This document shows positions 32,968-59,375 of a stretch of DNA of 64,000 nucleotides, piece by piece. Each line of letters opens with the position of its first letter. Position 1 is the stretch's first letter. Made by a program: the position numbers and the translations under genes. The DNA comes from Planctomycetota bacterium (GTDB lineage: Bacteria; Planctomycetota; B15-G4). Location of the stretch: the NCBI GenBank assembly GCA_029245865.1, contig JAQWOM010000056.1, positions 62,001 through 126,000 on the forward strand, in the 5' to 3' direction. Under the pieces are notes generated by a model. The model did no database searches and was not told the origin of the DNA. It worked only from the letters and a program-made list of their open reading frames with translations.

Positions 32968-33315
32968 ATGCTAACTCTCATCTGCAAGCGAACCTGAAGC
33001 ACCTGTCGCAAGGCGGTCGCCTTGCTCAACGAATCCGGGGCTGAGCACGTCTATCGCGAATACACGGAAGACCCGCTCAGCGAACAAGAATTGACAGAGG
33101 TGTTCGCGGCACTCGATATGCGCCCTCGGGATTTACTTCGAATGCGCGACGCAAAACCCTTGGGTCTCACAGGTGACGAGCCAGACAACACCTTGATCCA
33201 GCTCATGGCCCAGAACCCGACCCTCTTGCAGAGGCCCATCGGTGTGACAGGTCGCGGAAAAAACAAACGGGCAGTCGTCGGGCGCCCCCCTGAAAACCTT
33301 CTCGGCTTGCTGTAG
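32968..33315 (+). CDS. ArsC/Spx-like selenoprotein (in-frame UGA read as selenocysteine)
   Basis: Read through one TGA at 32995-32997, this gene gives a complete 115-residue ArsC/Spx-family protein. The start is MLTLICKRT, then U10-S-T-C13-R-K-A-V-A-L-L. Spx and relatives have C10-x-x-C13-R-K-A at these positions, so the TGA replaces the first redox Cys exactly. The rest is standard: YTEDPLSEQELTEVF, RDLLRMRD, LLQRPIGVTG and VGRPPENLLGLL. Stopping at the TGA would leave nine residues, and starting after it would remove the active site. A SECIS-like hairpin begins 10 nt after the TGA. Cys13 could resolve a selenenyl-sulfide. The likely role is thiol redox or arsenate reduction; no ars genes are nearby. 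Confidence 0.88.
33008..33025 (+). promoter_or_regulatory. bacterial SECIS-like hairpin of the ArsC/Spx-like gene
   Basis: GCAAGGC (33008-33014) pairs perfectly with GCCTTGC (33019-33025), closing the loop GGTC. The stem starts 10 nt after the UGA, and the loop guanines are at +18 and +19. In E. coli fdhF the SelB-binding hairpin is similarly placed and also carries GGUC in the loop. Confidence 0.85.
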
Positions 33316-59300: not shown

Positions 59301-59375
59301 TCCCCGGTGGTGTAATAGGCAACACATCAGATTTTGGTTCTGACATTCGAGGTTCGAGTCCTCGCCGGGGAACCA
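59301..59375 (+). tRNA. tRNA-Gln (anticodon TTG)
   Basis: A full cloverleaf can be folded: acceptor TCCCCGG (59301-59307) with CCGGGGA (59365-59371), an anticodon stem TCAGA/TCTGA with loop TTTTGGT giving anticodon TTG, and the T arm GAGGTTCGAGTCCTC. The discriminator is A and the CCA end is encoded (59373-59375). It reads CAA and, by wobble, CAG. Confidence 0.95.

Follow-up and report, generated by a model that had tools for sequence, protein, structure and literature searches.

Relatives of the arsenate reductase ArsC that carry selenocysteine (Sec, U in motifs) in their active site are already in print. In the relevant papers, 14 UxxS sequences are reported from the Sargasso Sea (2005, PMC1088965), followed by 77 UxxS sequences ("ArsC 1") and 42 UxxC sequences ("Arsenate reductase 2", cd03032) from the Global Ocean Sampling (GOS) data (2008, PMC2398784). 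A 2026 inventory (PMC13188914) associates TIGR00014 with UxxS and NF041106 with UxxC.

In this study, we analyzed a gene of this family located at 32968-33315 of a 64,000-nt stretch, hereafter the window, from a Planctomycetota bacterium (assembly GCA_029245865.1, contig JAQWOM010000056.1, positions 62,001 to 126,000, forward strand). The gene has a TGA in frame, at the first position of a UxxC motif. That this TGA is decoded as Sec had been proposed in an initial annotation made from the letters of the DNA. We consider such decoding very probable on sequence grounds, given the sel genes of the same genome, the Cys found in homologues at this position, the agreement of the downstream hairpin with constraints on bacterial Sec insertion sequences (SECIS), and the conservation of residues preceding the TGA. 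The same annotation had called the gene unreported-looking, which is only partly right: ArsC-family proteins with UxxS (PMC1088965, PMC2398784) and UxxC (PMC2398784, PMC13188914) have been published. The literature searched contains UxxS and UxxC ArsC selenoproteins, none of them named as the clade described below, which is not proof of absence.

A TGA codon in the active site of an ArsC-family gene

The features of the locus, in window coordinates, are the following.
32968..33315, + strand: ArsC-family gene, predicted selenoprotein of 115 residues (frame open save one TGA; Pfam ArsC match; homologues aligned over the whole length)
32995..32997, + strand: in-frame TGA, residue 10, predicted Sec codon (same place in 11/11 clade members)
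33004..33006, + strand: TGT codon of Cys13, which is predicted to act as the resolving thiol in UxxC (Cys13 in 45/45 aligned rows)
33008..33025, + strand: SECIS-like hairpin, 7-bp stem (33008-33014 with 33019-33025), GGTC loop (33015-33018), codons frozen
33022..33315, + strand: 97-codon open reading frame (ORF) expected from standard calling, with a TTG start inside the hairpin 3' arm

The frame begins with ATG, ends with TAG and contains a single TGA, at codon 10 of its 115 codons. The reading frame thus bears out the initial description of an otherwise intact ArsC-family protein interrupted at residue 10, and the active-site motif is, as stated there, U10-S-T-C13-R-K-A. It had also been anticipated that standard calling would retain only a 97-residue piece from 33022, and a mechanical ORF listing indeed gives 33022-33315 alone, 97 aa from the TTG.

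To assess conservation of the TGA, 392 genomes sampled from the phylum were searched, and 72 gave a match with an E value of 1e-8 or lower. The 11 best matches, namely the window gene and the ten that follow it (53-71% identity), are hereafter called the clade. Each of these genes has a single TGA and no second stop, and all 11 share the motif T-U-[SG]-T-C-R-K-A-V-A-L-L around it. No TGA was found in the 61 remaining best matches (at most 47% identity), except in genome G189. There, the gene at L079:7926-8264 belongs to the TIGR00014 arsenate reductases (123.6 bits, over the cut-off), with a catalytic TGA and a Ser three residues later; it corresponds to the published UxxS type, found here in the same phylum. 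Genome G002, of the same family, had no match in the genome search, and G056 had a second match bearing a TGA, in a 486-aa frame (E 5e-5).

Ten nucleotides (32998-33007) after the TGA, the arms GCAAGGC (33008-33014) and GCCTTGC (33019-33025) form seven Watson-Crick pairs, which confirms the perfect hairpin closing a GGTC loop that had been pointed out initially. The loop lies 17 nt from the TGA, and the 40 nt that follow the TGA fold with a minimum free energy of -12.5 kcal/mol. With these values (4-nt GGTC loop, 7 bp, 17 nt, -12.5 kcal/mol), the hairpin satisfies the bacterial SECIS constraints quoted in PMC13188914. In E. coli K-12 fdhF, where the TGA is codon 140, the loop is also GGTC and lies 18 nt after the TGA, but the predicted stem is bulged whereas that of the window gene has no bulges. 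The hairpin had been presented as a textbook SECIS with the fdhF loop: the identity of the loop holds, and "textbook" is slightly strong, given the bulges of the predicted fdhF stem.

The genome of the window (3.33 Mb in 57 contigs, 90.7% complete) contains selA, selB, selD and tRNA-Sec, all four of the genes whose presence the initial annotation had advised checking. Profile searches gave 390.8 bits for SelA, 319.2 bits for SelB (350.3 with its C-terminal piece; cut-off 242.25) and 339.2 bits for SelD (cut-off 125). The tRNA-Sec, with anticodon tca, scores 75.5 bits for a gathering score of 47, and a second match, at 48.2 bits, is barely above it. SelA, SelD and tRNA-Sec all lie inside 6 kb of contig C23, and the closest organism-labelled relatives of SelA are assigned to Planctomycetota or Planctomycetes, pointing to a planctomycete as the likely host. 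SelB is above cut-off in all 11 clade genomes. The selD gene (L019, contig C23:77470-78390, - strand) itself has one in-frame TGA, early in the protein, in the motif C-A-G-U-A-A-K, and its product is probably a selenoprotein too.

Selection on the codons and the hairpin

We compared the proportion of synonymous differences (pS) along the 11 clade genes. It is 0.30 in codons 11-20, versus 0.58 in codons 2-9 and 0.70 in codons 21-45. Codons 15-18 are AAG, GCG, GTC and GCC in 11/11 genes, and codon 19 is TTG in 9/11, although TTG accounts for 15% of the Leu codons in the rest of these genes (the binomial values attached to these frozen codons are guides only, because the genomes are related). A perfect 7-bp hairpin is formed in 8/11 genes, as compared to 1.9-6.8% of synonymous resamplings per gene. 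Across the clade, 97.4% of the 77 pair cells are paired, and one sequence has a two-sided stem change, from C-G to G-C.

Several observations nevertheless weigh against this reading of the hairpin and of the selenium machinery. One gene has a G-U pair and two of the 11 have one A-C mismatch, and covariation was not significant (reached by 41/500 shuffles), the variation being too sparse. When all TGAs of the window on both strands were searched for a 7-bp Watson-Crick stem whose loop begins with GG, an equally good hairpin was found after 26 of 2061 (1.3%). The folding energy is unremarkable (z -1.49), with 19/200 dinucleotide shuffles folding at least as well. Rfam has no match at the locus at gathering score and, at E up to 10, three weak unrelated ones, all on the opposite strand. 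Finally, SelB is above cut-off in 20 of the 25 genomes searched outside the clade, so that its presence discriminates weakly. Taken alone, the hairpin is therefore weak evidence, as equally good ones follow 1.3% of the window TGAs and its energy is not exceptional; it is raised above chance by the TGA residue shared by 11/11 genes, together with the frozen hairpin codons. Elsewhere in the window, an ordinary tRNA (59301-59372, + strand) is the sole Rfam match to reach the gathering score, and the TGA-plus-hairpin pattern gave no exact match among viral contigs.

The TGA might also be a true stop. The locus would then be a pseudogene, or its product would be limited to a piece of 97 residues starting at the TTG of 33022. 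ORF calling sees the locus in this way, and 81 of the best 120 of 330 database relatives are recorded so. Yet this piece is devoid of strand 1, of the active site and of most of helix 1. Moreover, codons on the two sides of the TGA are under similar constraint: pN/pS, the ratio of nonsynonymous to synonymous proportions, is 0.59 before the TGA and 0.58 in codons 21-45, which is not expected from a real stop. Stop-codon decay in homologues, on both sides of the TGA, had been named initially as an outcome that would speak against Sec; the residues before the TGA are conserved and show no decay. With the same TGA in 11 genomes, no second stop and frozen hairpin codons, we regard a true stop as highly improbable.

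Database relatives, Cys forms and probable Sec forms

A protein database yielded 330 matches, of which the best 120 were listed and counted. Residue 10 is covered in 36 of these 120: 34 have Cys10 and Cys13, and two have Trp10 and Cys13. The question raised initially, whether U10 corresponds to Cys in homologues, is thus answered positively for 34 of the 36 listed homologues covering the position, the other two having Trp. The remaining 84 lack residue 10, and with it the active site, and 81 of them begin at residue 19. In the window, residue 19 is the TTG at 33022, within the 3' arm of the hairpin. A start at residue 19 is what gene callers would make of TGA genes, suggesting that many more such selenium proteins are likely hidden, and these 81 relatives are putative Sec genes. 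If so, a large share of the family is truncated at one fixed place in databases, its active site lost from annotation, and the cause would be a neat one, namely a false start codon located in the SECIS hairpin itself, on its 3' side. One truncated relative, P0067 (95 aa), lies on an 11.1 Mb contig, perhaps a complete genome, and is a candidate for a culturable host.

The two Trp10 proteins, P0065 and P0074, are close relatives with the same motif, and they form one branch (support 100/99). They are what one could invoke for a changed genetic code reading TGA as Trp or Cys; the TGA might otherwise be a sequencing error. But these Trp rows are perhaps themselves TGA genes, translated with a code that reads TGA as Trp. 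In addition, TGA terminates 5 of the 9 window genes examined, as well as several sister genes, a tRNA-Sec(tca) is present in the genome, and ten further genomes have the TGA, so that a changed code or an error appears even less credible than a true stop.

The distribution of Cys forms was examined on a phylogeny of 128 relatives, calculated from the columns beginning at residue 19; it leaves out 3 of the 84 truncated rows, whose start is not at residue 19. The Cys label requires 21 changes on this tree, at least 7 of which are forced by well-supported branches. The Cys form P0003, for instance, stands beside the truncated P0038 (support 100/97). Repeated exchange between Sec and Cys is therefore likely, but not proven, because columns are few, many forks are open and "truncated" is used as a stand-in for Sec. 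Pairs such as P0003/P0038 would provide close Cys and likely-Sec versions of one small, confidently modelled enzyme, in which the advantage of selenium over sulfur, a long-standing question, could be directly tested in an ArsC-type active site.

Probable function and comparison with known families

The window protein matches Pfam ArsC (PF03960) with 41.4 bits, over the gathering cut-off of 24, and it is the only such match in its genome. With TIGR00014 (arsenate reductase, glutaredoxin) it scores 68.2 bits, and the clade members of genomes G003 and G001 score 93.2 and 80.9 bits, all under the cut-off of 106.05. The Spx/MgsR profile TIGR01617 gives 37.2 bits, under its cut-off of 75.05. As for NF041106 (ArsC_rel_Se_1, cut-off 85 bits), the window protein (P0001) has no match at E up to 10, and the G003 and G001 members reach 15.4 and 17.3 bits. 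For all three proteins scanned, the best NCBIfam profile is ArsC. The predicted fold has a pLDDT (predicted local distance difference test) of 96.9 over all 115 residues, and the nearest solved structures are ArsC proteins. Of the initial label "ArsC/Spx-like", the ArsC family assignment is retained, since both the fold and the profile scores place the protein somewhat closer to ArsC than to Spx.

Arg58, Arg89, Arg106 and Cys13 are invariant in 45/45 aligned rows. In the alignment with E. coli ArsC, Arg58 and Arg89 correspond to Arg60 and Arg94, and Arg106, in an invariant GRP, would be equivalent to the third arginine of the triad (Arg106/107 in the E. coli protein). PMC3169414 describes these three arginines as essential to ArsC. 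A third Cys is found at residue 6 (32983-32985), forming C-x3-U-x2-C, in 8/11 Sec rows and in 34/34 Cys rows.

A redox-sensing regulator of the Spx kind, with a Sec10-Cys13 switch and binding to the alpha subunit of RNA polymerase, would fit the same fold family. It is very improbable in our view, since ArsC is the best NCBIfam profile of the window protein and of the two clade members scanned, and Arg106 is invariant where Spx has Tyr. Gly52 of Spx contacts RNA polymerase, according to PMC2801614; counting without gaps from residue 10, the equivalent residue is Arg52, but the register is uncertain at this point and the clade varies there, with Gly in G003. Two Spx-like proteins with a TGA were also noticed: L044:1483-1830 (genome G031) and L002:874-1251 (acidobacterial metagenome-assembled genome JACQGE010000064.1) have a TGA in U-T-[ST]-C with a hairpin after it. 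For both, the highest-scoring NCBIfam models are of the Spx type, and NF041106 gives 40.4 and 27 bits, versus its cut-off of 85. L002 was the only distant relative found in the scan of genome contigs.

We think it probable that the whole frame is made, by means of the SECIS-like hairpin, as a 115-residue selenoprotein of ArsC fold working as an ArsC-like reductase. From what is established for bacterial Sec insertion and for ArsC, SelA would charge tRNA-Sec with selenium coming from the selenophosphate of SelD, and SelB would bind the GGUC hairpin 17 nt past the UGA and deliver Sec. Sec10, just ahead of the first helix, would then attack the oxidised substrate. This may be a disulfide, a sulfenate or an oxyanion, for example arsenate, which Arg58, Arg89 and Arg106 would hold in place. 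Cys13 would resolve the adduct, producing a Sec10-Cys13 selenenylsulfide, to be reduced by a donor of the thioredoxin type. Reduction of the ArsC type, coupled to thioredoxin, is the likeliest function.

On balance, we favour an ArsC-type reductase, of an oxyanion or a disulfide; arsenate as its physiological substrate is plausible, yet falls somewhat short of an even case. Gene content is equivocal as regards arsenate, with the missing pumps and the lack of shared neighbours weighing against it. No Acr3 or ArsB match was found in the window's genome at its 90.7% completeness. In the clade genomes, Acr3 is matched in 6/11 (once below cut-off) and ArsB in 5/11, leaving three of the 11, the window's own included, with neither. 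When ORFs of at least 90 aa were compared around the 11 loci, several of which are on short contigs, no shared neighbour or ars operon was found: two neighbourhood groups overlap the gene itself, and two others comprise two loci each. Glutamate-cysteine ligase PF04262 (the one ligase family searched for) was found in 0/11 clade genomes, which fits a glutathione-independent route.

The product could instead be a selenoprotein that acts in the manner of glutaredoxin, as a general reductase of disulfides or sulfenates, with arsenate not among its substrates. The UxxC active site, a weak Pfam glutaredoxin match (24.7 bits, cut-off 22.9), the three genomes with neither Acr3 nor ArsB and the lack of ars neighbours at the loci compared all speak for it. 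However, there would be no need in a simple thiol reductase for three arginines invariant in 45/45 rows; two of them align with Arg60 and Arg94 of the E. coli enzyme, and the triad is essential to ArsC according to PMC3169414. We hold this explanation to be rather unlikely.

A broader proposal can be put forward tentatively, namely that the clade represents a separate, unmodelled family of ArsC-type selenoenzymes. It would combine the arsenate-binding arginine triad with a UxxC selenenylsulfide, in a glutathione-independent, thioredoxin-coupled oxyanion reductase that is widespread but hidden and has switched many times between Sec and Cys. If this is true, its substrate would be arsenate or a similar oxyanion, and it would have been hidden since callers restart at the TTG of the SECIS stem.

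Compared to known systems, the window protein differs from E. coli ArsC (PDB 1jzw, 1i9d; TIGR00014) by a predicted Sec in place of Cys and by a second thiol at residue 13, within UxxC. It differs from Spx (PDB 1z3e, 7f75) by Arg106 in place of Tyr, a correspondence taken from the G-R/Y step that precedes the last helix. With the UxxS ArsC proteins (PMC1088965, PMC2398784) the clade shares Sec at the catalytic position, but has Cys13 where they have Ser. The ArsC-like UxxC proteins (GOS "Arsenate reductase 2" and NF041106) have UxxC in an ArsC-family protein, as in the clade. Should the GOS group be this same clade, the gene would simply add one more member to a family already described. The window protein is below the cut-off of TIGR00014 and has no match to NF041106, the two models of the 2026 inventory, and the clade joins UxxC to three invariant ArsC-like arginines, so that it looks like an unmodelled variant.
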